Shown: positions 25,008 through 39,125 of the stretch, one piece after another
How the letters are laid out: each line of letters begins with the position of its first letter
Numbering within the stretch: position 1 is the stretch's first letter
Made by a program: the position numbers and the translations under genes
The notes under the pieces: generated by a model
Database searches by the model: none
Told to the model about the DNA's origin: nothing
What the model saw: only the letters and a program-made list of their open reading frames with translations
Assembly (NCBI GenBank): GCA_016887485.1
Contig: CP069394.1
Location: 1,550,001 to 1,614,000 of the forward strand
Reading direction: 5' to 3'
DNA from: Chloroflexota bacterium
GTDB lineage: Bacteria; Chloroflexota; Anaerolineae; Anaerolineales; Anaerolineaceae
Length of the DNA stretch: 64,000 bases

Positions 25008-26327
25008 ATGAAAAATAAAGGCCTACGCACTTGTTTGTCGATTGGAATTGGGTTGATTGTGATCGCCCTGGTGTTTGCTGCGGGTGTCGGCGTTGGTTAT
25101 TTTGGCCCCAAATGGATTGGGATAGACCAATCCTATATCAGCGGACCCTATGATTGCCCACCCTGTGACGATTCCAGCACGACGACAATCATCGAATCTT
25201 ATGAAACCCCGGCTGCCACAGAAGATACAACGGTCACCGTTGATCCCTCCACCAGCACCCCGGCAGATCAAGCGAATCTCTTCTCCCCCTTCTGGGAGAC
25301 CTGGGACCTGCTGCATGAAAATTATGTCGATCAGCCATTGAACGATACCGACCTAATGCGTGGTGCAATCGAAGGCATGCTGGCCTCACTAGGCGACAAG
25401 CACACTTCCTATATGACCCCGGAAGAATTCACTCAGGCAAATGAATCGCTCACTGGCGAATACGAAGGCATCGGTGCCTATGTAGATGTCTCCGGCGACT
25501 ATGTCGAGATCATCAGCCCGATGAAGGGCTCCCCTGCCGAAGCCGCCGGCTTACGGCCCAATGACAAAGTCGTTGCGATTGACGGCGTGGATATGACCGG
25601 CACCCCCGGGGACCTGGTCCTCCAACAAATTCTCGGCCCTGCCGGTACGGACGTGACCCTGACCATTGACCGGGATGGCGAGACCTTTGATGTAACCATC
25701 ACTCGTCAACACATCGTCGTCCCGACAGTTGATTATGAAATGCTCGATAACAATATCGGTTATGTTGCCCTCTACACCTATGGCGACAATTCCACCGAAC
25801 AACTCCGGGCAGCCCTGACCGATCTGTTATCCCAAAACCCCGCTGGCTTGATCTTAGACCTGCGGGATAACGGCGGTGGTTATCTCAATACTGCCATTGA
25901 AGTTGTCTCCGAGTTTGTCAACGATGGCGTGGTGATGTATGAGCAGTACGGTGATGGTGAAACGTATGCCTATGAAGCCATCCCCGGCGGCTCAGCCACA
26001 GATATTCCATTGGTCGTTCTGGTCAATGGCGGCACAGCTTCCGCATCAGAAATTACTGCCGGTGCCATTCAGGATAAGGACCGGGGCGTTTTGGTGGGCT
26101 CAACCACCTATGGTAAGGGCTCCGTGCAGACCTGGATCGCCCTCTCGGATGAGGCAGGCGGCGTGCGAATCACAATTGCCCGCTGGCTGACCCCCAATGG
26201 CACCCAGATCAGCGATATTGGCCTGACCCCGGATTATGAAGTGGAAATGACCGAGGATGATTACCTTAACGGCAATGATCCCCAACTCGAAAAGGCGATT
26301 GAAGTCCTGCTCGATATGGTCAACTAA
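25008..26327 (+). CDS. ctpA: C-terminal processing protease (S41 family)
   Basis: A 439-residue exported or membrane-anchored serine protease. It has an N-terminal membrane segment (about residues 8-35), a Ser/Thr/Pro-rich spacer, a PDZ domain (about 145-225, EGIGAYVDVSGDYVEI to GPAGTDVTLTIDRDG), and an S41 catalytic core with the Ser/Lys dyad in GGTASASE and TTYGKGSVQ. Such enzymes trim C-termini of envelope proteins. AAGGAG lies well placed before the ATG. A YugP-type protease gene follows after 20 bases, so the two probably form an operon. Confidence 0.93.
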   Translation: MKNKGLRTCLSIGIGLIVIALVFAAGVGVGYFGPKWIGIDQSYISGPYDCPPCDDSSTTTIIESYETPAATEDTTVTVDPSTSTPADQANLFSPFWETWDLLHENYVDQPLNDTDLMRGAIEGMLASLGDKHTSYMTPEEFTQANESLTGEYEGIGAYVDVSGDYVEIISPMKGSPAEAAGLRPNDKVVAIDGVDMTGTPGDLVLQQILGPAGTDVTLTIDRDGETFDVTITRQHIVVPTVDYEMLDNNIGYVALYTYGDNSTEQLRAALTDLLSQNPAGLILDLRDNGGGYLNTAIEVVSEFVNDGVVMYEQYGDGETYAYEAIPGGSATDIPLVVLVNGGTASASEITAGAIQDKDRGVLVGSTTYGKGSVQTWIALSDEAGGVRITIARWLTPNGTQISDIGLTPDYEVEMTEDDYLNGNDPQLEKAIEVLLDMVN

Positions 26328-26347
26328 CTCAATTCAGGACGAATATT

Positions 26348-27046
26348 ATGTTCTTTCCAGTTTTCAATCTCAATTACCTGATCTACATGCTGCCCGCGCT
26401 CATCCTGAGCATGATCGCGCAGTTCTTTGTCAATGCCAGCTATTCCCGCTGGAGTCAGGTACCCAATCAAAGCGGTCTGAACGGTGCCCAGGTGGCACAA
26501 CGCCTGGCGGACCGGATGGGGTTGTATGGGATGCGGCTGAAAGGGACCCCTGGAAAGCTGACCGACCATTATGACCCCCAGCAGAACGTCCTGAGCCTCT
26601 CACAGGGCATCGCCCAGAGAGCCAGTGTTGCCTCAATGGCAATCACGGCCCATGAACTCGGGCATGCCCAACAGGACCAGGAGGAATATCTCCCCATGCG
26701 TTTGCGAACTGCAATGGTCCCTGTGGTCAACATCGGCACAACCGTAGGCTGGCTTTTCATCCTGATCGGCTTGCTGCTCCAGATCAGTGACCTGGCCTGG
26801 GTGGGCGTTATCGCTTTCTCCGCAGGCGCGATCTTCTCGATTGCGACCCTGCCGGTGGAGCTGAACGCCTCCCGCCGCGCCAAACAGCTGCTCAAGACCA
26901 ACGGTCTGGTGACCACAGTCGAAGAAGAGCGGGGTGTCAGCCAGGTGCTGAACGCCGCGGCCCTGACCTATGTGGCTGCAGTTGCCACCTCCGTCCTGCA
27001 GTTGATGTATTTTGCCTCGATGATTGGCGGTAGACGCCGCAGGTAA
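26348..27046 (+). CDS. YugP-type neutral zinc metallopeptidase
   Basis: A 232-residue membrane metallopeptidase of the YugP family. The zinc motif HELGH is in ITAHELGHAQQDQ (about residues 100-104). Membrane segments lie at the N-terminus (about 8-30), in the centre (two spans, about 120-165) and at the C-terminus. The shape is typical: 'LPVELNASRRAKQLL' and 'VLNAAALTYVAAVATSVLQL'. The target is unknown. It is the second gene after ctpA, so the pair may act together in envelope protein turnover; this is inference. A strong terminator follows. Confidence 0.88.
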   Translation: MFFPVFNLNYLIYMLPALILSMIAQFFVNASYSRWSQVPNQSGLNGAQVAQRLADRMGLYGMRLKGTPGKLTDHYDPQQNVLSLSQGIAQRASVASMAITAHELGHAQQDQEEYLPMRLRTAMVPVVNIGTTVGWLFILIGLLLQISDLAWVGVIAFSAGAIFSIATLPVELNASRRAKQLLKTNGLVTTVEEERGVSQVLNAAALTYVAAVATSVLQLMYFASMIGGRRRR

Positions 27047-28224: not shown

Positions 28225-28252
28225 TTGGCATAAAAGCAGAACATGTTATAAT
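28225..28252 (+). promoter_or_regulatory. promoter of the Dlt-like operon
   Basis: TTGGCA (28225-28230), 16-base spacer, TATAAT (28247-28252), also with a TGT extension before the -10. This is one of the best promoters in the window. It would give a leader of roughly 90 bases before the first gene. Confidence 0.7.
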
Positions 28253-28352
28253 TCGTAGCGGACAAATTTTGTCTGAAATTAATTTCCCACACCCTTCCCT
28301 CTTCCAAAACCAATTCATCGCACAGGGAAGTGGTGTTTTGAAAGGACACTTT

Positions 28353-30383
28353 ATGCGTACCAACTCGACCTATCGGGTGGTCGTCTTGCTTATTGTGGCG
28401 ACACTGGTCCTGACCAGTTGTAAAGTACCCGGCCCAACCCTTCCTGCTTCAACGGAGATTAGCGAGGCAGATGCCATCGCTGCTACTGTGACCCAGGCCC
28501 TCCAAAATGAGACCGCCGAAGTGACAGAAGCGCCCACCCCCACCATCCCTGCGCCAACTGCAATCCCAATTGTGGATAATCGTCTCCCCCCGGAACGCTG
28601 GCAGGAATGGCCCGTGATCCCGGAACTAACCGGGTATGAAAAACAAATCTACCAATATGGCCTAAGCCTGGGCAACGACCCCCACAGTTTCTCAAAGGTT
28701 GGCGATTGCCAGGCTATCAAACAGGTGCTGATGGGTATCTATGACCAGCCCACCCGCTTCACCCTGACCGAACGCAACGCCTATCTGCAGGAAAGCATTG
28801 ATAACTTCGCCGGATCCTTCAACCGTGATGGACAAGCTGTACGGGGCGGTTTCAACGCTGCTGCGGTACTTTCCCCCATTTGGGCAGACCCGGAGGTCTG
28901 TGAACCGGGCGAGACGCCAATCGAATGTGAAAACCGGGTGCACAACCCCTCATTCGTCATCATCAGCCTGGAAGTCTGGTGGTCCGGCCGCACGGTGGAA
29001 CGCTATGAAGAATATATGCGCACAATGATCGAATATTATATCGACAACGGCGTTGTGCCGATCCTTTCCACCAAAGCCGATAATGTTGAAGGTGATCACC
29101 GAATCAACCTGGCAACCGCCCAACTGGCCTATGAATATCACATCCCCTTATGGAACTTCTGGCTTTCTGTGCAGGACATGCCCTACCACGGGATTGACCC
29201 CGACCGGGACGGCTTCCATATAAGTTACGCTGCCTGGTCCGTGCGCAGCCTAACAGCCCTCGAAGCGCTGGATGCAGTCTGGCGCGGGGTTCGCGATGAA
29301 GCCGTTGCAGACATCACCCCTGTTGTCACCGAGACCCCCGAAGTGACCTTTGCAGATGTTTCGCTCAGCCCAAGCCCCATCGCTCCACAGGTGACGGTGG
29401 AAAACCAACGTTTGGTCTTCTCCATCGAGCAGCGCAGCGGTGAAGCAAGCCAAAGCCTGGGCGTGTTCACCTACGACATGACGACCCAAACCCTTTTTCA
29501 GGTCCTTGAGACCGGATATGAGCTGCAGGATGTGGACCCCACCGGTACCAAGCTGCTGGTCAATCAGGGCAGCAACCTCTTCATCAGCGATGCCGACGGC
29601 AATATCTCGGTAGTAACCGATAAAATGGCTGTCACCGGGCGAAGTGCCAGTGCTTTCTGGCTGCCAAACGACTCCCGCCTGCTGGTCCTGACCGAAGAAG
29701 ATCAAAATCAGGCCATCTGGTTGATTGATCCCGTCAATGACACCTGGCTCCAAATAGCTTCCGGACAAATCTCCGGCCTGATTCGCCCCACTGGCGACGC
29801 CAGCTTCTATTGGTATGAAGGTGAATGCCTGGCTGAAGCTTCCTGCGAGGAAAATACCGTTTGGACCAATGACGCCAATGGCAGTACACTCTATAAGGAA
29901 CAATCCAATATCGCCATGTCCGCTGATGGAAAGACATTTGTCTGGGTTGAAGGTACGGATGACCCCACCCAGATCCTCTACGTTGAAAACACCGGAAAGA
30001 CCTACCAGGACTACCTTTACCTTCCCGGAAATCGGGCAGTGGACCTGGAATGGTCGCCGGACAGTGACGATGTGGTTCTGCTCTCCAAGACCCGTGATGA
30101 TTACACCGGCAAATCCGGTGATGCCCGCATCTTTGTGGTCAATATCGCGGCCATGAGCCAACTGGAATACTATGCCTTCCCCGGCCTCAACCCCAGCGTC
30201 GTCTGGAGTGCCGGCTCAGGCCAGCTTTTCCTGACCTCAACCCTGCCAATGGATGATGGCTATCAAATCCATCTCCGCCAACTCAACCTGGGATCCGGTC
30301 TCTTTGATGAACTGGATGATTCCCTGACGATTACTTCTACAGATTTCATCACCTTAGATGCAATCTATTGGATCACACCATAA
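28353..30383 (+). CDS. SGNH-like lipoprotein with C-terminal beta-propeller
   Basis: A 676-residue lipoprotein. The signal peptide ends in LVLTSC, and AAAGGA precedes the ATG at 28353; an upstream in-frame ATG at 28269 lacks support. Residues about 75-310 look like an SGNH-hydrolase fold: block I is VGDCQ (Cys119 where serine is expected), block III region FVIISLEVWW lacks the GTND asparagine, and block V is DGFH (His289). Residues about 340-670 are WD40/TolB-like propeller repeats. It shares the block-I domain with the lipoprotein at 32364. As first gene of the operon it probably binds or modifies the acylated surface product. Whether it is catalytic is doubtful. Confidence 0.7.
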   Translation: MRTNSTYRVVVLLIVATLVLTSCKVPGPTLPASTEISEADAIAATVTQALQNETAEVTEAPTPTIPAPTAIPIVDNRLPPERWQEWPVIPELTGYEKQIYQYGLSLGNDPHSFSKVGDCQAIKQVLMGIYDQPTRFTLTERNAYLQESIDNFAGSFNRDGQAVRGGFNAAAVLSPIWADPEVCEPGETPIECENRVHNPSFVIISLEVWWSGRTVERYEEYMRTMIEYYIDNGVVPILSTKADNVEGDHRINLATAQLAYEYHIPLWNFWLSVQDMPYHGIDPDRDGFHISYAAWSVRSLTALEALDAVWRGVRDEAVADITPVVTETPEVTFADVSLSPSPIAPQVTVENQRLVFSIEQRSGEASQSLGVFTYDMTTQTLFQVLETGYELQDVDPTGTKLLVNQGSNLFISDADGNISVVTDKMAVTGRSASAFWLPNDSRLLVLTEEDQNQAIWLIDPVNDTWLQIASGQISGLIRPTGDASFYWYEGECLAEASCEENTVWTNDANGSTLYKEQSNIAMSADGKTFVWVEGTDDPTQILYVENTGKTYQDYLYLPGNRAVDLEWSPDSDDVVLLSKTRDDYTGKSGDARIFVVNIAAMSQLEYYAFPGLNPSVVWSAGSGQLFLTSTLPMDDGYQIHLRQLNLGSGLFDELDDSLTITSTDFITLDAIYWITP

Positions 30384-30402
30384 TTTTACGGAGGACGACA
30401 AT

Positions 30403-30798
30403 ATGAAAAACAATAAATGGTTCTATCTCATCGGTGTCATTGCCCTGCTCAGTATGGCCCTTTCCGCCTGCGCCGGCGGCCAGGATGCCCCCGCCCAAAC
30501 GGTTCTGCTCTATCAGCAGGCCCTGGTGGATAAAAATCAGGAAGAACTGATCAGCTATGCCTGTGCCGATTGGGAATCTCAAGCGCTTCTGGAGCTCGAT
30601 AGCTTCGTCAGCGTGGAAACCGAACTTGTTGACGCCACCTGCCAAACCGTCAGCGAAGATGGCGACACCGCCAAGGTGACCTGTGAAGGAGCCATCTCAG
30701 CGACCTATAATGGCGAAGCCCGGGAATTCTCCCTCAGCGGCCGCACCTATACCCTCGTCAACGAAAATGGCGATTGGCGCCTCTGCGGTTACGAGTAG
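30403..30798 (+). CDS. small lipoprotein, 131 aa
   Basis: An exported lipoprotein with signal peptide and lipobox LSAC near residue 21. The mature part (about 110 residues) resembles the small NTF2-like lipoproteins that begin with a helix (APAQTVLLYQQALVDKNQEELISY) followed by a sheet ending in NGDWRLCGYE. No function is recognised. The start at 30403 has GGAGGA seven bases upstream. The gene lies 19 bases after the SGNH-like lipoprotein and 12 bases before the microprotein, so it belongs to the operon. Confidence 0.7.
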   Translation: MKNNKWFYLIGVIALLSMALSACAGGQDAPAQTVLLYQQALVDKNQEELISYACADWESQALLELDSFVSVETELVDATCQTVSEDGDTAKVTCEGAISATYNGEAREFSLSGRTYTLVNENGDWRLCGYE

Positions 30799-30810
30799 AA
30801 AAGGTAATCG

Positions 30811-30939
30811 TTGCGCTGGCTAAAAGACCATCTGCTAACTAAAGAAAACCTCTGGGCGTTGTTGCTCTGCCTGCTGATCGTCATCCTGGTGATCTTCAGC
30901 GCTGACCGTTCTCCGCTCTGGATCTATCAGGGATTTTAA
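30811..30939 (+). CDS. DltX-like single-span microprotein (42 aa)
   Basis: Starts with TTG, with AAAGG six bases upstream; an in-frame stop lies just before, so this is the earliest start. The stop TAA directly abuts the ATG of the MBOAT gene. The protein has a basic N-terminus, one membrane span (about residues 14-31, LWALLLCLLIVILVIFSA) and the C-terminus DRSPLWIYQGF. The N-in/C-out topology and the terminal pattern [F/W]IYxxF resemble DltX, the small protein of Gram-positive dlt operons, which as I recall ends in FIYNEF. In that system the C-terminal motif cooperates with the MBOAT protein; I infer the same here, with Tyr39 as the key residue. Confidence 0.75.
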   Translation: MRWLKDHLLTKENLWALLLCLLIVILVIFSADRSPLWIYQGF

Positions 30940-32367
30940 ATGTCGTTACTCAATATCCTGATCCTCATCGCTGCTGCCCTCGCGCTCAGGCTTCTCTTTC
31001 CGGGAAAGCTGCGGCGCTGGGCGCTGCTGGTCAGTTCGGTCATCGCGATCTACTGGCTGCAGCCCAGCCTCCCCATCCGCCAGATGGATTTCTGGTTTCC
31101 AACCGCCACCCTCGGCCTGGTTATAGCAGTCTGGGGCCTGACGGCTGAGAAGGAACAATTCAAAATCAAACAAAACTGGTTGGCGGCGGTCCTCACATTG
31201 GGGACCGTCTTGCTGCTGGGCCTGCTGCGTTTCGTCAGCCTGAAAGGCATTCTGACGGCTTCCCGACCGCCCCAGTTCCTCTCAGTGGCAATCGCCCTGG
31301 CGATCATTGCCGTGCTGACGCTGGTACTCACTCGCTTCCTCAAGCCGGCCCGTCCTGCACTGACAGTCGGTGTGCTGCTGATCCTGGTGTTCTTCGTTCT
31401 GCTCAAGAACCCCACCCTGGCAGCCCGCACAAGTGCCGCCCTGCGCGGCCTGATGTCGCAGGACCCCAACCTGGCCCTCTCAACCGACCTTGGCTGGCTG
31501 GGCTTTTCTTATGTGGCCTTCCGCCTGATCCACACCCTGATTGACCGGATGAACGGGCGACTCAAAGAAATGGGTCTGGACGAAGTGCTAATCTATACGA
31601 TCTTCTTCCCGTCCTTCATGGCTGGCCCCTTGGATAAACTGCAGCGATTCCGCAAGGACCTCGACGCCCCGCAGCCCCTGAACGCCGGTGAACTGAAGAC
31701 CAGCGGCAAGCGACTGGCAACCGGTCTCTTCCGCAAATTCATCCTGGCCGACTCGCTGGCACTGGTGGCGATCACCGCGACCAACGTCACCCAGACGAAT
31801 TCCACCGGCTGGCTTTGGCTGATGCTGGCGGCTTATTCCTTCCAGCTCTATTTCGACTTTGCGGGTTACACCGATATTGCTATCGGTATGGGACATTTGT
31901 TGGGCTTCGCCCTGCCAGAAAACTTCAATCACCCCTATCGAGAGCCCAACCTGACCCTGTTTTGGAATAATTGGCACATGACCCTCACGCAATGGTTCCG
32001 AGGCTATTTCTTCAACCCCATCACCCGCAAGCTGCGCAGGAACAAGAAACTCCCTACCCCATTGATCATTTTCATAACACAGATCAGCACCATGCTGGTG
32101 ATCGGCCTCTGGCACGGAATCACCCCCAATTTCATCATTTGGGGCCTTTGGCATGGCCTGGGCCTGTTCATCCATAATCGCTGGAGCAGCTTTGCCAGCC
32201 CGAAGGTCGCAGCTCTGGTTGAGAAGAAGCCCGCGCTGGGCAAAGTCTTCTATGTGAGCGGCGTTGCCTTTAATTTCGTCTTTGTCAGCCTGGGTTGGAT
32301 CTGGTTTGCCCTGCCCTCAACGAGCCTGGCACTTCAAACCTTCGGAAAGCTGTTTGGAATCGCATGA
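30940..32367 (+). CDS. MBOAT O-acyltransferase (DltB/AlgI-like)
   Basis: A 475-residue multi-span membrane protein of the MBOAT family, which passes acyl groups across or at the membrane. The family core is clear: FFPSFMAGPLDKLQRF, YFDFAGYTDIAIGMG, FNHPY, FWNNWHMTLTQWFRGY, and GLWHGITPNFIIWGLWHG with catalytic His392. The N-terminal 190 residues hold about six hydrophobic segments, more than needed for the core. It starts immediately after the microprotein stop and overlaps the next gene by four bases (ATGA). By neighbours it fits DltB rather than alginate acetylation AlgI. Confidence 0.92.
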   Translation: MSLLNILILIAAALALRLLFPGKLRRWALLVSSVIAIYWLQPSLPIRQMDFWFPTATLGLVIAVWGLTAEKEQFKIKQNWLAAVLTLGTVLLLGLLRFVSLKGILTASRPPQFLSVAIALAIIAVLTLVLTRFLKPARPALTVGVLLILVFFVLLKNPTLAARTSAALRGLMSQDPNLALSTDLGWLGFSYVAFRLIHTLIDRMNGRLKEMGLDEVLIYTIFFPSFMAGPLDKLQRFRKDLDAPQPLNAGELKTSGKRLATGLFRKFILADSLALVAITATNVTQTNSTGWLWLMLAAYSFQLYFDFAGYTDIAIGMGHLLGFALPENFNHPYREPNLTLFWNNWHMTLTQWFRGYFFNPITRKLRRNKKLPTPLIIFITQISTMLVIGLWHGITPNFIIWGLWHGLGLFIHNRWSSFASPKVAALVEKKPALGKVFYVSGVAFNFVFVSLGWIWFALPSTSLALQTFGKLFGIA

Positions 32368-33311
32368 AAAAGCTGACTCTTTCCTCCCAACTACCCACCC
32401 TGGCCGCCATTCTGCTGGCATCCGCGTTGATCGCTGGCTGCGTCCCTCAAACAGCACCGACCGCCAGCGAATCACCCGCCGCCACAGCAACCGCCACCCT
32501 GCAGCCCACGCTTACCCCTACGGGCACCTTGCAGCCCACCCCCACCGAAACCCAAGTCCCCACCCCCACGCCGGACACCCGCCTCAAACCTGATGACTGG
32601 CAGGAATGGCCGGTAATCCCTGAGCTGGAGTCTTATGTTTATGAGGTTTACAGCCTGGGTCAGGAAATGGGCCGTGATGCTCACGTGTTCTCGGTGATCG
32701 GCGACTGCCAAAGCTCGCCCACCTATTTCCTCAGCCTCTATGACGAAAATCGTTACACCCTACCAGAGGGTGAGGAATATTTGGAAGACACCATCGAGTG
32801 GTACGCTGGTTCCTTCGTGCACCGCAGCATCACCGTTGAAAATGGTATGACGGTTGCCAGTGCCCTGAACCCAATGTGGGCCAGAGCGAATTCTGAACTC
32901 TGCGAAACCACTGAAACCCCAGTTGCCTGTGAAGTCCGTCTGTCCAATCCCTCTCTAGCCTTGATCAGCCTGGGAACCAACTGGACACCATCCACCTCAC
33001 AGGAAGATTACATCGCTTATCTGAACCAGATCGTTGATATCCTGCTGGAACAAGGCGTTTTGCCGGTGCTCTCCACCAAAGCGGACAACACCGAAGGCGA
33101 TTACAGCCGCAACCTGGCCATGGCACAGGTGGCTTATGACCGGCATCTACCCCTCTGGAATTTCTGGGCAACCGTGCAGGACCTGCCTAATGGCGGCCTG
33201 GATAAAGATCGGGAAGATGTCTACCTCAATTACCGGGCCTGGGATATCCGCAACCTCTCTGCGCTGGAACTGCTTGACAGCATCCGCCAGCAGCTGGCAG
33301 CGGCCGAATAA
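32364..33311 (+). CDS. second SGNH-like lipoprotein
   Basis: A 315-residue lipoprotein (lipobox LIAGC near residue 24) with a Thr/Pro-rich linker to about residue 70, then an SGNH-like domain homologous to that of the lipoprotein at 28353. Shared stretches: DDWQEWPVIPEL, VIGDCQ, NPSLALISLGTNW, LPVLSTKADNTEGD, LWNFW. Block I again carries Cys (Cys115) instead of Ser; the block III Asn is kept (GTN), but the block V His is replaced by Tyr287. The catalytic triad is therefore incomplete. Starts by an ATGA overlap with the MBOAT stop. Probably a surface partner of the acyl-transfer machinery. Confidence 0.75.
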   Translation: MKKLTLSSQLPTLAAILLASALIAGCVPQTAPTASESPAATATATLQPTLTPTGTLQPTPTETQVPTPTPDTRLKPDDWQEWPVIPELESYVYEVYSLGQEMGRDAHVFSVIGDCQSSPTYFLSLYDENRYTLPEGEEYLEDTIEWYAGSFVHRSITVENGMTVASALNPMWARANSELCETTETPVACEVRLSNPSLALISLGTNWTPSTSQEDYIAYLNQIVDILLEQGVLPVLSTKADNTEGDYSRNLAMAQVAYDRHLPLWNFWATVQDLPNGGLDKDREDVYLNYRAWDIRNLSALELLDSIRQQLAAAE

Positions 33312-33326
33312 TCCCCCCGATGATCG

Positions 33327-34493
33327 ATGAGAGAAATAAAACAAATGACAGAAGACACAACTACTGATAAAAAATCCACAGGCAAATTCATCCGCAATGT
33401 GCTGATCAAAGGCCTGCTGCTCTTCATTATTATCAATTTCACAATTGGATTGATCCCTGTAGGCAATAACTGGGGCAAGCTCTCGCTCTATAACCTGGTT
33501 TGGCCCGGCAGGGTCCGGCTGCCCTTTGGCGAGAACCCCACCGAAGCCTATAACCTCAGCCTCTATGACCTGGAAGCGATGTTCGCCTCCCATGAGATCA
33601 ACGCGGGTGATAAACCCAGTGACGAGTTCCGCATCATCCTGATCGGTGACAGCGCCACCTGGGGCACCCTGCTGGAGCCACAGGACACCCTCAGCGGGCT
33701 GATTAATGCGGATGGCCTCACCACCAGCGATGGCCGGACGGTCAGGGCCTATAACCTGGCTTATCCTTCCATGTCCCTCGCCAAGGACCTGATGATCCTT
33801 GAAAAAGTGCTGGCCTATGGCCCGGACCTGATCCTATGGCCGGTCACGCTTCAATCCTTCCCTAACCAAATTCAGATTGAGACGCCCCTGGTTGCCAATA
33901 ACCCCCAACGGGTGATCCCCCTGATTGACAGATTCGACCTCCCGCTGCAGGATAACCTGGCAGCCTTCACCCAATCCACTTATTGGGACCAGACTCTCAT
34001 CGGCCGCCGGCGTACGATTTTTGACGCCCTCCAATTGCAGTTCTACGGCATGATGTGGGCTGCCACCGGAATCGACCAGACCTATCCCAGCAACTACACC
34101 CCCGCTCAGCGCGATTTCGAAGCCGGTGACACAAACTTTGCCGGTTGGGATGCAAGTACCCTACCCGTAGATCAACTACTGACAAGCGCACTCTCAGCCG
34201 GGACAATCCTGGCCGGGGATGTGCCTGTTCTGATTGTCAATGAACCGATCCTGGTCAGCACAGGGGCCAACAGTGATATCCACTATAACTTCTTCTATCC
34301 CCGCTGGGCCTATGACCAGTACCGCGAACTGATGACCGGCCTCTCTGCAGATGCGGATTGGACCTACATTGACCTTTGGGATGTTGTTCCCGAAGCTGAA
34401 TTCACCAATTCCGCTGTTCACCTGACCCCCGCAGGCTCCCAAACCTTATACGAAGCCTTAAAACCCGCTCTGGAACAACTAATTGCCCCCTAG
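33327..34493 (+). CDS. membrane-anchored SGNH protein (DltD-like role)
   Basis: A 388-residue protein with one N-terminal membrane span (about residues 24-45) and a large exterior SGNH domain. Block I is intact, LIGDSATWG with Ser109. Block V has SAVHLTPAGS (His365), although the aspartate three residues before the His is replaced. This single-span plus SGNH layout is that of DltD and of AlgX/AlgJ-type proteins that work with MBOAT enzymes. Start at 33327 or, better spaced from a GAGAG site, 33345 (MTEDTT). It lies 15 bases after the second lipoprotein, within the operon. Confidence 0.8.
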   Translation: MREIKQMTEDTTTDKKSTGKFIRNVLIKGLLLFIIINFTIGLIPVGNNWGKLSLYNLVWPGRVRLPFGENPTEAYNLSLYDLEAMFASHEINAGDKPSDEFRIILIGDSATWGTLLEPQDTLSGLINADGLTTSDGRTVRAYNLAYPSMSLAKDLMILEKVLAYGPDLILWPVTLQSFPNQIQIETPLVANNPQRVIPLIDRFDLPLQDNLAAFTQSTYWDQTLIGRRRTIFDALQLQFYGMMWAATGIDQTYPSNYTPAQRDFEAGDTNFAGWDASTLPVDQLLTSALSAGTILAGDVPVLIVNEPILVSTGANSDIHYNFFYPRWAYDQYRELMTGLSADADWTYIDLWDVVPEAEFTNSAVHLTPAGSQTLYEALKPALEQLIAP

Positions 34494-34581
34494 GTATACC
34501 CTGGTGGTAAAATACACAGGTTGCCGTCAATAAATCAACCTCGGACGGCTGAAATTTCTCAAAGAGGAGACTAAACTGAAC

Positions 34582-34833
34582 ATGAAAGATGAAATTATTG
34601 CCAAAGTGGATAGTTACCTGCGCGACGAAGTCTTGCAGCAACCGGACCGCCAGATTGATGCCGACGAAGCCCTGATCTCCAGCGGCCTGATCGATTCCTT
34701 CAGCCTGGTGGATGTGGCCTTGTTCGTTGAGGACAATTTCAATGTCCATATTGATGACACCGAGTTGAACGCGGACACCTTTGACACCCTCAACCAATTA
34801 GCCGACCTGATCATCGAACGCCAGGACGCTTAA
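34582..34833 (+). CDS. acyl carrier protein (DltC-like)
   Basis: An 83-residue carrier protein. The phosphopantetheine attachment site is GLIDSFSLV with Ser39, inside a normal four-helix ACP pattern (LISSGLIDSFSLVDVALFVEDNF). The absence of fatty-acid-synthesis genes nearby and the one-base overlap with the following ligase show that it is a dedicated carrier. The ribosome site AGAGGAG lies about 12 bases upstream, slightly far. It would carry the acyl group activated by the ligase to the membrane acyltransferase. Confidence 0.9.
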   Translation: MKDEIIAKVDSYLRDEVLQQPDRQIDADEALISSGLIDSFSLVDVALFVEDNFNVHIDDTELNADTFDTLNQLADLIIERQDA

Positions 34834-36512
34834 TGCAGACGTTTCACCACATTTTAAAAAACCATTACGAAAATCGACCGGATGAGATCGCCCTCACATT
34901 GCAGCATGCCGGTGAGGAAGACCGACAGATCACCGTGCGCCAGCTGGTCACGAGTGCGGTCAGCGCCCAGCGCAAGCTGGAAGCTGAAGGCATTCAGCCC
35001 GGTGAGGTGGTGCTGCTGATCTTCCAACATGGTCATGACCTGATCCGCACCTATTTCGGCACCATCCTGCATGGGGCGATCCCTTCGATCATGCCCTATC
35101 TGACGGAAAAGCTCCAACCGGAAAAATACCGCCGGGACCTTGCCTCATTGATCGAAGTGACCAAACCCGCCGCAATTTTCACCTATGCAGAATTTGAAAT
35201 GGAAGTGCGCGCCGCTCTCAAGGAAGAGGATTCGGTCCGCACGGTGATGGTGGCGGAACAACTCGGTGAAGGTGAAGAGCCAGTCTTTGACCTCTCCCGC
35301 CGAAAACCTAAAGACATCGTGCTGCTCCAGCATTCCTCCGGCACTACCGGCCTGCAAAAGGGCGTCGCTCTTTCGCACCAGGCAGTTCTGAACCAGGTCA
35401 GCGCTTATGCTGATGTGCTTCATATTGATCCAAAATCGGATGTATTGGTCAGCTGGCTGCCCCTCTATCACGACATGGGCCTGATCGCCGGCTTCCTGAT
35501 GCCGATCCTCTACGGCCTGCCGCTGGTATTGATGTCCCCCTTCGACTGGGTCCGGGCACCCTATAGGCTGATGCAGGCTGTCAGCCAATACAAGGGCACC
35601 CTGGTCTGGCTGCCGAACTTTGCCTATAACTTCTGCGCCACCAAGATCCGCCCCCGTCACATGGAAGGGGTTGACCTCAGCTCCTGGCGGCTGGTGACGA
35701 ATTGCTCTGAGCCGATGCGCAATGACAGCCAGCAGCTTTTCCTGGAAGCCTTCAAACCCTATGGCTTCAAAGAAAGCGCGCTTGGCACCAGTTACGCTAT
35801 GGCGGAAAACACCTTTGCCGTCACACAGGGCGGCGTGGACAGCCCCGTCCGGATTGACCCCGTGGATCGAGATGCTGTTCAGACCGAACGAATCGCCAGG
35901 CCGGCTATTGAAGGCCAGCCCTCCATTGACATGGTCTCCGCCGGCAAGCCCATCCCCAACACCCAGGTGAAAATAGTGGATGCGGATGGTAATGCCCTGC
36001 CGGAGCGGCACATTGGTGAGATCGCACTACTCTCAGACTGTATGCTGACGGAATATTATCACCGACATGACGCCACCGAACAAGCCTTCATTGATGGCTG
36101 GTACCTGACCGGTGACTATGGCTATATGGCAGATGGCGAAGTGTATATTTCCGGTCGCAAAAAGGACCTGATTATCGTGGGCGGCAAGAACATCTACCCC
36201 CAAGACCTTGAGCGGATCGCCTATACCATTCCCGGCGTGCACCCCGGCCGGGCCGTGGCCTTTGGTATCTTCTCACAGAAGATGGGCACCGAACAGGTAG
36301 TTCTGGTGGCGGAAGTGGATACCGCTGAGGAGGAAGAAAAGCAGCGGATCGCTAATGACATCCGCCAGACCATCACCCAGGATTCAGCGGTTGCGCTGCG
36401 CCATGTGCACCTGGTGGAAGATGGCTGGATCGTCAAGACCAGTTCCGGCAAGACTGCCCGTTTGGCAAACCGGGATAAATTCCTCGAAGAAACCGGTTTC
36501 AAGGTTATCTAA
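34833..36512 (+). CDS. acyl-AMP ligase of the FAAL type
   Basis: A 559-residue adenylate-forming enzyme that would activate a carboxylic acid with ATP and load it on the adjacent carrier protein. Motifs: HSSGTTGLQKGVALSH (P-loop-like A3), SWLPLYHDMGLIAGFLMPI, typical of fatty-acyl-AMP ligases, TGDYGYMADGEVYISGRKKDLIIVGGKNIYPQDLE, and a C-terminal lysine in SSGKTAR (Lys540). It starts within the ACP stop (TAATG). In the dlt system this slot is taken by DltA, a D-alanine activating enzyme; the FAAL features here suggest a fatty or other aliphatic acid instead. The exact acid cannot be told. Confidence 0.85.
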   Translation: MQTFHHILKNHYENRPDEIALTLQHAGEEDRQITVRQLVTSAVSAQRKLEAEGIQPGEVVLLIFQHGHDLIRTYFGTILHGAIPSIMPYLTEKLQPEKYRRDLASLIEVTKPAAIFTYAEFEMEVRAALKEEDSVRTVMVAEQLGEGEEPVFDLSRRKPKDIVLLQHSSGTTGLQKGVALSHQAVLNQVSAYADVLHIDPKSDVLVSWLPLYHDMGLIAGFLMPILYGLPLVLMSPFDWVRAPYRLMQAVSQYKGTLVWLPNFAYNFCATKIRPRHMEGVDLSSWRLVTNCSEPMRNDSQQLFLEAFKPYGFKESALGTSYAMAENTFAVTQGGVDSPVRIDPVDRDAVQTERIARPAIEGQPSIDMVSAGKPIPNTQVKIVDADGNALPERHIGEIALLSDCMLTEYYHRHDATEQAFIDGWYLTGDYGYMADGEVYISGRKKDLIIVGGKNIYPQDLERIAYTIPGVHPGRAVAFGIFSQKMGTEQVVLVAEVDTAEEEEKQRIANDIRQTITQDSAVALRHVHLVEDGWIVKTSSGKTARLANRDKFLEETGFKVI

Positions 36513-36530
36513 GATCAAACTCCAAAAAAC

Positions 36531-36555
36531 ACAAGGCACCGTTATGGTGCCTTGT
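36531..36555. terminator. terminator closing the Dlt-like operon
   Basis: Perfect 10-bp stem ACAAGGCACC / GGTGCCTTGT with a 5-base loop, flanked by an A-run on one side and T-rich DNA on the other. It lies between convergent genes and can serve both. Confidence 0.8.
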
Positions 36556-36575: not shown

Positions 36576-37583
36576 CTAGCGGTGAGGAAACACCCGTTGG
36601 ATCAGGGCTTCCTGATCGCCAACCACTTCCAACCCTGCATTTTCACCGATGCTTTGATAAAGCACCTGACCATCCAGGTCCTCAAATTTAACTCTGAAAC
36701 AGGCATTCAGACTTTCCAGAATCCGCCGCTCCATCGCCACAGTCGTGGGCGCCTGTAAAAGCCCTCCCGCATTCTGCCGAGCTTCCACTTTCAGGCGATG
36801 GGTCCGATTGCGGAAGGTCAACCGCACCCAGTTATCCTCGACGACCAATTCTTCAATTTTTCCGCCATTATAGGTCGTGAACCGGTGAAGTTGGCCTTCA
36901 AAATAGAACCCAACGATGAACCCGCCAAAAGACCGTCCCAGCCAGGGAATCACCGCCACGGACAACATCAGGCTGATCCCGGGCCGGTCAAAGTGATTAC
37001 TTTGTCCCCATATCCAGGCCGAAGGGAATTGACGGCCCCAATCCTTCTCGATGAAGCCCCTGCCGCCGCTAAAATCAATCTCTTGCCTGTTAAGCCTGAG
37101 AGAGCCAGAGATCTCATGATCCAGGCTGACCACACCATGATAGCACTCCATGAATGGCACCCAGGCAAACCACCCCATTGCGCCAACCGATGTCAAACGT
37201 ACGGGCCAGGGGGTCAACCCACTGAAATTCAGCGTTCCGTGGAGAGATATATTATGCTCATCAATATCCAGATTGATTTCACCAGCAGAGAAGAAATTTT
37301 CCCCAATCAATATTTCAAAGCTATCCGGTGAAGCCTTGAAATCCTCATATGGAAACCGAAGATAAGCACCAGCCTCCGATTCCGAATCAAAGACCTGAAT
37401 AAAAGCATGCCGCTTCTCACGATCCTCGCTCAGATATATACCTGGGATAATTGCCAATCGGTGACTGCCATCCCGGCTGACCAGCTTGAAATACCAGCCT
37501 TCAAAGAAGGGCGGATTTGCTGTAAAACCATGATATCTTTCCGGGTGAAGTCGGTTGCCTAATCCCACGGTCAATCCTTTCAC
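36576..37583 (-). CDS. tocopherol-cyclase-family protein
   Basis: A 335-residue protein of the tocopherol cyclase (VTE1-like) family. Signatures include HGF-ANPPFFEGWYFKLV near the N-terminus and FSGGRGFIEKDWGRQFPSAWIWGQSNHF in the middle. Plant members close the chroman ring of tocopherol; most bacterial members have no known substrate and act as lipid-binding beta-barrels or cyclases. A methyltransferase gene lies 19 bases upstream on the same strand. The start is GTG at 37583, or GTG at 37568, which has the better ribosome site (AAAGGA, six bases away). Confidence 0.75.
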   Translation of the reverse strand: MKGLTVGLGNRLHPERYHGFTANPPFFEGWYFKLVSRDGSHRLAIIPGIYLSEDREKRHAFIQVFDSESEAGAYLRFPYEDFKASPDSFEILIGENFFSAGEINLDIDEHNISLHGTLNFSGLTPWPVRLTSVGAMGWFAWVPFMECYHGVVSLDHEISGSLRLNRQEIDFSGGRGFIEKDWGRQFPSAWIWGQSNHFDRPGISLMLSVAVIPWLGRSFGGFIVGFYFEGQLHRFTTYNGGKIEELVVEDNWVRLTFRNRTHRLKVEARQNAGGLLQAPTTVAMERRILESLNACFRVKFEDLDGQVLYQSIGENAGLEVVGDQEALIQRVFPHR

Positions 37584-37602: not shown

Positions 37603-38238
37603 TCAGCTCTTTTGGATCTTGTAGATCCCAGCACAATCCGAGGTCTGCGTATACTGAACCTTCAGGCCTAACACCTCCATTTGCGGGATCATCGTCTCTG
37701 CGCACCAATAGAATTCTGAATCATCCCATTGATTGGCAAAACGTTGGAAACCCACTCGAAATGCCGCCTGGGTCTGAAATGAAATATCTGCAATTAGTAC
37801 AACCCCATCATCGGCCAAATGATCCGCGACCAGACTCTTGAGGACCGCCAGCTTTTGCTCATCGGTGAACTCATGAAAGGTATACCCGGAGATGATCCGA
37901 TTAAAAGGCTGGTGAATCTCCTCGGGCCACTCATCTGACAGCAAGTCCAGTTGGAGTAAATGTGCCTCAGGGAGAACTTCAGCCGCCTTGTCCAACATGG
38001 CAGCCGAAAAATCCACACCCCACAATTGACCTGGAGGAATAGACAGCCTGACACCCAAAGCGCCCGTGCCGATCCCAAGATCCAACACTTTATGGATTGG
38101 CTGAAGCTCAGCAGCCTGAATTAAACAATCAAGGGTCTGTTCGTAACCGATAAAAGGAAATTCTCCATCGCTGACATCATCCTGATAGGTTTGAGACCAA
38201 TGATTGAATAAGGCTTCTCTACCGTTGTTGTCTGGCAT
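37603..38238 (-). CDS. class I SAM-dependent methyltransferase
   Basis: A 211-residue methyltransferase. It has the SAM-binding motif VLDLGIGTGALGVRL, the acidic loop VDFSAAML, and motif IV region FNRIISGYTFHEFTDEQK, as in the YrrT-like small-molecule methyltransferases. The ATG at 38238 is chosen for its AAAGGA site; the longer open frame to 38379 has none and overlaps the divergent promoter. It forms a two-gene operon with the tocopherol-cyclase-like gene. The substrate is unknown; a lipophilic quinol or phenol is possible by context only. Confidence 0.8.
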   Translation of the reverse strand: MPDNNGREALFNHWSQTYQDDVSDGEFPFIGYEQTLDCLIQAAELQPIHKVLDLGIGTGALGVRLSIPPGQLWGVDFSAAMLDKAAEVLPEAHLLQLDLLSDEWPEEIHQPFNRIISGYTFHEFTDEQKLAVLKSLVADHLADDGVVLIADISFQTQAAFRVGFQRFANQWDDSEFYWCAETMIPQMEVLGLKVQYTQTSDCAGIYKIQKS

Positions 38239-38310
38239 ATTTTCCTTTCTATTCACCCCTAATTGTAATCCCTTGCCCAAAAAACTAGTAAAACCCTGAA
38301 AAACCCAGGC

Positions 38311-38341
38311 TTGCAACTTATCAGGGCCTTTCTCGTATAAT
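38311..38341 (+). promoter_or_regulatory. possible promoter of the GIN-domain lipoprotein
   Basis: TATAAT at 38336-38341 with TTGCAA 19 bases upstream; the spacing is longer than ideal. Confidence 0.35.
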
Positions 38342-38378
38342 ATATATACTGAAAGATATTTAAAGAAAGGCATAATCA

Positions 38379-39125
38379 ATGAAAACCAAGAAGATATTCC
38401 TTATCAGCGCCCTGCTACTTTTGAGCGCAACCCTGATGGCCTGCTCGTTTCCCATTATTAGGGTCGTCAAGGGCTCTGGCACGCTGACAACCGAGACCCG
38501 TAGCATTAACAATTTCAATGCGATCCAATTGGATGGCGCGGGCCAACTGGTGATCACCCAGGGTGACACTGTCGCACTGCAGATTGAGGCTGAGGACAAC
38601 ATCCTCCCCTATTTGAAATCCACCGTTGAAGGGGGCACACTGGTTCTCGGCTTCCAGGACCATTTCTGGCAGAAATCCCTGCTTCCTACCGAAACCATCA
38701 CTTATTCTTTGGTCGTCACGGACTTAAATGCCATCACCTTCAATGGCGCGGGCGACATGGATATGAACCTGCTGGACACCGACACCCTGAGCATTACTGT
38801 CAATGGCGCTGCACAAGCTCACATCACAGACCTGACGGCGGACTCACTGATCATCCAGATCAATGGCACCGGCAATGTCAATATCAGTGGTGAGGTCAAT
38901 TCCCAGATACTCGGTATAGATGGCGCCGGCACCATCCAAAATGGCGATCTCAAGACCTCGCAGACTGTCCTCACATCAAATGGGCTGGGTATTGCCACCG
39001 TTTGGGTCACGGACAGCCTTGAAGTCACTTTTAATGGCGGCGGCACATTGAATTATTTCGGAGAACCTGCTATCATCCAAAATATCAATGGCGCGGCAAA
39101 CATCACTCATCTTGGCAGTAAATAA
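38379..39125 (+). CDS. GIN-domain (DUF2807) lipoprotein
   Basis: A 248-residue surface lipoprotein (signal peptide ending in LMACS near residue 22) with a DUF2807 beta-solenoid. The N-terminal part TETRSINNFNAIQLDGAGQLVITQGD and the later repeated 'FNGAGDMDMN', 'VNGAAQAHIT' units parallel the protein at 2020, which lacks a signal peptide. The family is widespread in envelope-associated proteins of unknown role. A membrane protein of the DUF5668/LiaF-like type follows after 61 bases; GIN-domain and LiaF-like proteins are often neighbours, which suggests envelope-stress duties (inference). Confidence 0.85.
   Translation: MKTKKIFLISALLLLSATLMACSFPIIRVVKGSGTLTTETRSINNFNAIQLDGAGQLVITQGDTVALQIEAEDNILPYLKSTVEGGTLVLGFQDHFWQKSLLPTETITYSLVVTDLNAITFNGAGDMDMNLLDTDTLSITVNGAAQAHITDLTADSLIIQINGTGNVNISGEVNSQILGIDGAGTIQNGDLKTSQTVLTSNGLGIATVWVTDSLEVTFNGGGTLNYFGEPAIIQNINGAANITHLGSK

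Follow-up and report, generated by a model that had tools for sequence, protein, structure and literature searches.

A Dlt-like gene set with a fatty acyl-AMP ligase-like enzyme in Anaerolineae: a likely transmembrane acyl relay

Results

The locus

The window analysed here is a 64,000-nucleotide stretch of the 2.9 Mb genome of a Chloroflexota bacterium (positions 1550001-1614000 of CP069394.1, assembly GCA_016887485.1; coordinates below are positions within that stretch), and its subject is a run of eight plus-strand genes that resembles the Dlt pathway, with a fatty acyl-AMP ligase (FAAL)-like enzyme where Dlt has DltA. A preliminary description of this DNA had listed eight open reading frames in a fixed order, tightly coupled by overlaps and forming one unit from promoter to terminator. 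Our open reading frame check reproduced order, strand and positions (Table 1), and the sequence does contain the junctions TAAATG, ATGA and TAATG; in particular, the carrier and ligase genes, P0007 and P0008, overlap, and an 88-nt gap separates the carrier gene from P0006. The transcription signals fared less well. Namely, while a promoter-like site and a hairpin do exist at the two ends, promoter-like sites are no more frequent in the region than shuffling would produce (3 found versus 6.1 expected), and the T-run of the hairpin lies on the opposite strand, its plus-strand tail reading CTATTTAAAG.

Table 1. Features of the acyl-relay locus, in window coordinates
Feature	Position	Strand	Remarks
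Promoter-like site	28225..28252	+	TTGGCA-16-TATAAT, 11/12 match
P0001	28353..30383	+	Lipoprotein, putative SGNH-superfamily domain with GDC and DxxH, C-terminal beta-propeller
P0002	30403..30798	+	Small lipoprotein, weak SnoaL-like match
P0003	30811..30939	+	DltX-like 42-aa membrane microprotein ending WIYQGF; TTG start
P0004	30940..32367	+	DltB-like MBOAT, His346 and His392, without C-terminal shuttle motif
P0005	32364..33311	+	GDC lipoprotein of the P0001 family, DxxH replaced by ExxY
P0006	33345..34493	+	SGNH protein, N-terminal helix, GDS nucleophile Ser103; or from ATG at 33327
P0007	34582..34833	+	Acyl carrier protein, phosphopantetheine Ser39
P0008	34833..36512	+	FAAL-like enzyme
Hairpin	36531..36555		10 bp, between convergent genes; T-run on minus strand only

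The acyltransferase and its microprotein

The best family by far for P0004 is TIGR04091, the DltB equivalog, with a score of 214.3 bits that lies under the cut-off of 375; none of the 147 genomes of the window's family (Anaerolineaceae) holds a match above that cut-off. When the MBOAT profile was run against PDB sequences at E 0.001, only two matched, both of them DltB (best E 9.7e-62), and His346 and His392 are invariant in all 14 rows of the alignment. The gene directly preceding it encodes the microprotein P0003, which behaves as a gene because its codon changes are mostly synonymous (13-20 synonymous and 3-9 non-synonymous differences, of 42 positions, to four relatives) and its conservation is wide. 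Namely, a microprotein is present in all 40 regions fetched from family genomes around the best matches to the DltB model, and 72 of the 80 named loci have one as well (WIYQGF in 70, WIYQNF and WVYQGF in one each); the two sets have 13 MBOATs in common. The small lipoprotein P0002 is usually encoded upstream of the microprotein and MBOAT, as their partner, and may help the complex to assemble.

Among 119 complete MBOATs of the window's type (106 distinct; 120 in all), not one ends in a YxxF motif of its own, whereas all 20 other MBOATs carry the motif at their own C-terminus, the control comprising 20 regions, 19 around a hand-picked, lower-scoring MBOAT and one with a FAAL only. This contrast, taken with the presence of the partner microprotein, argues for a free-standing shuttle protein here, as in Dlt, with Tyr39 of P0003 as the putative acyl shuttle. 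In this sense, the analogy with DltX proposed in the preliminary description is stronger than could have been known at the time. PDB sequence searches with P0003, as with P0005 and P0006, returned nothing useful.

The ligase and the carrier

The signature YHDMGLIAGF, from which the ligase had been read as a FAAL rather than a DltA, is indeed present in the P0008 translation, and the comparisons below likewise favour a FAAL-like enzyme over DltA. Among NCBIfam models, PRK09192 (fatty acyl-AMP ligase) comes second with 376.2 bits (cut-off 600), as opposed to 32.7 and 23.3 bits for the DltA model TIGR01734, so far under its cut-off of 559.85 that P0008 can be rejected as a D-alanine ligase. In the PDB sequence search, the first three matches were 3kxw, a polyketide synthase domain and 3pbk, with FadD32 entries next; the label of 3pbk is fatty acyl-adenylate ligase, whereas that of 3kxw, which we take to be the Legionella FAAL, is Saframycin Mx1 synthetase B. 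The alignments with 3kxw and 3pbk run through the FAAL insertion, and the linker between the YxxxE and GxPx patterns (YAMAE to GKPI in the window) spans 45 residues in P0008, compared with 19 in a second AMP ligase encoded by this genome and 22 in the DltA-like ligase of a relative. As for the carrier, P0007 keeps its phosphopantetheine serine, Ser39, in all 41 aligned rows, scores 22.7 bits with the DltC model TIGR01688 (under the cut-off of 52.35) and, used as a query in its own genome at E 1e-6, finds its own gene as the sole match.

Could the locus nevertheless encode a true Dlt system, with D-alanine or another amino acid as cargo and teichoic acid as acceptor? The layout of MBOAT, microprotein, carrier and SGNH protein is certainly Dlt-like, and one locus of the same family, L198, combines an MBOAT and a weak carrier match with a DltA-like ligase (289.6 bits with TIGR01734, under cut-off). 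Set against this are the DltA scores of the window ligase and its FAAL insertion, as well as the lack of a match to CDP-glycerol glycerophosphotransferase (PF04464) in the organism's own genome, a result that is suggestive only, and we therefore regard a true Dlt system as highly improbable. The L198 MBOAT itself ends in FIYMGF, and that locus is possibly an amino-acid version with a fused shuttle.

The SGNH protein and the GDC lipoproteins

The predicted model of P0006 (pLDDT 87.8) has a single N-terminal helix (10-36), which would place the rest of the protein outside the membrane, and it superimposes on E. coli TesA as an SGNH fold with Z 16.4 and rmsd (root-mean-square deviation) 2.6 for 170 residues. 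Across the 72 rows of its family, GDS is present in all, His359 in 69 (the other 3 being gaps) and Asp343 in 69; in block II, the place of a possible transferase-type change, 67 of 72 rows have Gly139, where P0006 itself has Ala, and 52 of 72 have Thr or Ser at position 142. At E 0.1, a search with 40 family members listed two NCBIfam families, neither of them a DltD model. Foldseek returned DltD chains as weak matches (best E 3.2e-3, at rank 15), and the absence of DltD from the best 50 structure matches listed for P0006 says nothing either way.

The two lipoproteins P0001 and P0005 belong to a different family, in which, over 81 rows, 70 have GDC and 11 GDS, with a full Cys-Asp-His set in 53 and Ser-Asp-His in 11. 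The best sign that the Cys column is the place of the nucleophile is precisely this replacement of Cys by Ser. Lipase_GDSL_2 matched 31 of 44 members at E 0.1 (two of the 44 being propeller-only; best E 4.5e-7), P0001 itself giving no match and P0005 one only at E 0.15; when eight members were searched singly, six matched, in the later blocks of the profile only. P0005 has lost both the Asp and the His of DxxH and is possibly inactive. Residues 343-676 of P0001 form a beta-propeller (Z about 22 in structure comparison), and its structure search was dominated by propeller matches, the fold of the GDC domain being hardly probed. A propeller-only lipoprotein, its fold read from sequence, occurs in L135 and L080. 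Since comparison of the GDC-family and P0006-family profiles gave a probability of 1%, with only a short stretch around DxxH aligned, these two groups of SGNH proteins are not closely related. A probable role for the GDC lipoproteins is that of accessory transferases or esterases of the SGNH kind, with the acceptor of the relay as their substrate too.

Distribution of the gene set

The MBOAT profile, at E 1e-80, detected its target in 34 of 400 sampled Chloroflexota genomes (completeness 80 or more), all within the window's class, Anaerolineae. Around the 80 named loci, on the same strand within 9 kb, an SGNH gene was found in 71, the small lipoprotein in 63, a GDC gene in 52, the carrier in 40 and the FAAL in 34, many contigs ending early. 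Spacing is as tight there as in the window, the median gap being 0 for MBOAT and SGNH genes (69 pairs) and 2 for carrier and FAAL genes (33 pairs). The core of small lipoprotein, microprotein, MBOAT and anchored SGNH protein is common across Anaerolineae. The gene order of the window is conserved in relatives as far as this core is concerned, with changes of place for the carrier-FAAL pair and for some of the SGNH genes: all eight genes were seen in the same order in two same-genus genomes (L048; L069, which is the same contig as L075), and the class-wide unit is smaller than the complete operon of the preliminary description. Large genes that follow two MBOATs were considered as SGNH substitutes and rejected, since one looks by sequence like a restriction-modification protein and the other like a histidine kinase. 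FtsY and RF2 genes (named from sequence) near some MBOATs, and ZIP, PepSY, zinc-ribbon and M29 genes near some carrier-FAAL pairs, were likewise set aside as housekeeping-like.

Carrier and FAAL mostly travel as a pair, and the FAAL lies beside the MBOAT in 13 of the 40 fetched regions. Of the remaining 27 genomes, we excluded two in which a contig end lies close by; the other 25 hold a FAAL elsewhere in 15 cases and a carrier in 23 (some of them in the operon). Across 110 family genomes with a completeness of 85% or more, 43 have both MBOAT and FAAL, 15 the MBOAT only, 5 the FAAL only and 47 neither, giving a Fisher p of 2.4e-12 without correction for kinship; in the FAAL-only group, one genome is at the threshold and two have theirs on contig fragments.

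The most instructive case is that of Leptolinea sp. HRD-7, where all the dispersed pieces lie on one complete plasmid, AP024711.1, of 212,187 bp (L202-L204). They occupy four sites, with the carrier and two GDC genes at about 26-32 kb, the SGNH gene at 61.6 kb, the FAAL at 148.8 kb and the lipoprotein-microprotein-MBOAT group at 184 kb. As the plasmid makes up 5.6% of the genome, the chance of three further sites falling on it is, by simple arithmetic, about 2 in 10,000. In the public record, the MBOAT, FAAL, carrier and microprotein of this plasmid are all 'hypothetical protein'. A search of plasmids with the MBOAT gave 136 records, and a single one, the Leptolinea plasmid, reaches a query coverage of 80%. 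The cultured relative Leptolinea tardivitalis also has the pieces.

These observations bear on a second alternative, in which the window brings together two separate functions, an MBOAT-SGNH transferase fed by acetyl-CoA and a carrier and FAAL of an unrelated lipid pathway. Such a reading would account for the many genomes with carrier and FAAL apart from the MBOAT, sometimes beside housekeeping-like genes, and for the 88-nt gap ahead of these two genes in the window. It sits poorly with the co-occurrence of MBOAT and FAAL across genomes, with the detached pairs or carriers that adjoin GDC lipoproteins (L164-L167, L171) and with the gathering of all pieces on one plasmid. What is more, the distances between MBOATs and between FAALs correlate over 34 loci (r 0.69), a correlation for which shared species history alone could suffice, and the MBOATs near acetate-CoA ligase-like genes in these genomes are ones with a fused shuttle motif. 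Altogether, we consider two unrelated functions improbable.

Outside the gene set, a tocopherol cyclase-like gene and an adjoining methyltransferase gene lie on the minus strand (36576-37583 and 37603-38379), convergent with the operon, while a CtpB-like S41 protease gene and a Zn_peptidase_2 gene lie upstream (25008-27046), their order being kept in same-genus relatives.

Discussion

We believe that the locus is likely to encode a Dlt-like transmembrane acyl relay with an aliphatic cargo and a surface acceptor. The parts that can be recognized at the level of sequence are a FAAL-like ligase, a carrier serine, the histidine pair of the MBOAT, a microprotein with a tyrosine hexapeptide and a helix-anchored SGNH protein with GDS and His. 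In such a relay, P0008 would make the acyl-AMP and load the phosphopantetheine of the carrier P0007, P0004 would take the acyl group off the carrier and pass it to the tyrosine of the microprotein, and the serine of P0006 would receive it and hand it to a hydroxyl outside the membrane.

Because the loading enzyme is of the fatty-acid-activating kind, as judged from its family, its PDB matches and its insertion, the most likely cargo is a fatty acid or another aliphatic acid, in line with what the preliminary description had supposed. That said, the same relay could carry a short, branched, hydroxylated or dicarboxylic acid activated by a FAAL-fold ligase. Namely, a FAAL fold leaves the chain length free, the groups named as cargo in the relay passages of a published account are D-alanine and acetyl (PMC12148441), and Flexilinea-type genomes manage without a FAAL. 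Given that the top-listed ligase models and structures are fatty acid-activating enzymes by name or homology, we hold a non-fatty cargo to be unlikely, if a serious contender. Near fused-motif MBOATs of the same family, the ligase is acetate-CoA ligase-like in five regions, and a rule by which the ligase sets the cargo fits the variation of ligases near MBOATs. In L182 and L183, a FAAL and a carrier lie near MBOATs with a C-terminal shuttle motif of their own (two such MBOATs in L182), an arrangement that may be a fused form of the same idea.

The acceptor is most likely a surface glycan or glycolipid. In particular, a polysaccharide deacetylase lipoprotein occurs in the operons of seven loci from five genomes (Pfam run on two members), a GT87 gene stands right after the FAAL at six loci from five genomes (Pfam run on one member), and a GT2 gene precedes the GDC-carrier genes on the HRD-7 plasmid; these glycan genes point to a glycan acceptor. 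In its passages on the envelope, PMC13319060 describes a multilayered envelope in a Chloroflexota member, with layers whose identity is given as unclear, and Chloroflexota without lipopolysaccharide (LPS) and BAM genes. One may speculate, and we rate the idea as doubtful, that long acyl chains are put on a surface glycan of Anaerolineae and help to build one of the outer envelope layers, a lipid-like coat assembled outside the membrane with neither LPS nor mycolic acid pathways, in which the GDC lipoproteins would take part as SGNH enzymes with a Cys nucleophile.

Several observations weigh against the proposed relay and should be noted together. The top model for P0008 is PRK07768, named long-chain-fatty-acid--CoA ligase (379.3 bits, cut-off 572), and P0008 reaches the cut-off of none of the models quoted here. 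The family model searches gave P0003 no DltX match, its motif begins with W rather than the F of FXYXXF (the Tyr and the last Phe being kept), and 6 of the 80 named loci are without a recognizable microprotein, 2 more being unreadable owing to runs of N. In 67 of the 72 rows of the P0006 family, Ser or Thr takes the place of the usual Asp of DxxH. Glycan genes are found in a minority of loci only, and both cargo and acceptor are inferred from sequence. Finally, at E 1e-80 the FAAL is absent from 15 of the 58 MBOAT-bearing family genomes, nine of the 15 belonging to one genus (g9, which holds a Flexilinea), and L155, L156 and L157 have the carrier without a FAAL, while their relative L158 has both in the same order. 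As all five g9 genomes queried keep the carrier, another loading route must exist in that genus. The g9 loci, L139, L050 and L060 among them, keep carrier, microprotein and MBOAT with no such FAAL.

If the Dlt-like relay with an aliphatic cargo is real, it would be a second MBOAT-SGNH pathway with carrier and microprotein, equipped with a ligase for another class of acids and spread through a bacterial class. Two questions would become testable, namely which acids can pass a DltB-type MBOAT and what the Anaerolineae surface carries, and the shuttle peptide would come to be seen as a component that some systems fuse to the MBOAT and others keep apart from it. Searches of the open-access literature, where absence is weak evidence, found nothing joining MBOAT with fatty acyl-AMP ligase, DltB with FAAL, or MBOAT with acyl carrier protein and SGNH, nothing combining any three of MBOAT, SGNH, acyl carrier protein and FAAL, and, for MBOAT with Chloroflexi, unrelated work only.

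How does the system compare with known ones? With the Dlt pathway (DltA-DltB-DltC-DltD-DltX) it shares a ligase, a carrier, a DltB-like MBOAT without its own motif, a separate tyrosine microprotein and an anchored SGNH protein. Unlike Dlt, which D-alanylates teichoic acids, it has a FAAL-like ligase in place of DltA and extra lipoproteins, and neither a DltX model nor PF04464 finds a counterpart in it or its genome, respectively. Since the cut-offs for DltA, DltB and DltC are all unmet, we place it with the MBOAT-SGNH relays and not as a member of Dlt. The relay from MBOAT to tyrosine hexapeptide to SGNH serine is also that of PatA/PatB and AlgI-type O-acetylation, and in the passages of PMC12148441 that describe it, the non-Dlt pathways are without carrier and DltX-like microprotein. 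Those systems use acetyl-CoA and have the hexapeptide on the MBOAT, whereas the window system has a carrier and a separate microprotein. With FAALs of the FadD32/FAAL28 type (3pbk, 3kxw), P0008 shares the sequence family, the FAAL insertion and, presumably, the loading of a carrier. The partners of known FAALs are mostly polyketide and lipid synthases; the window FAAL, by contrast, would have a surface acylation relay as its partner.

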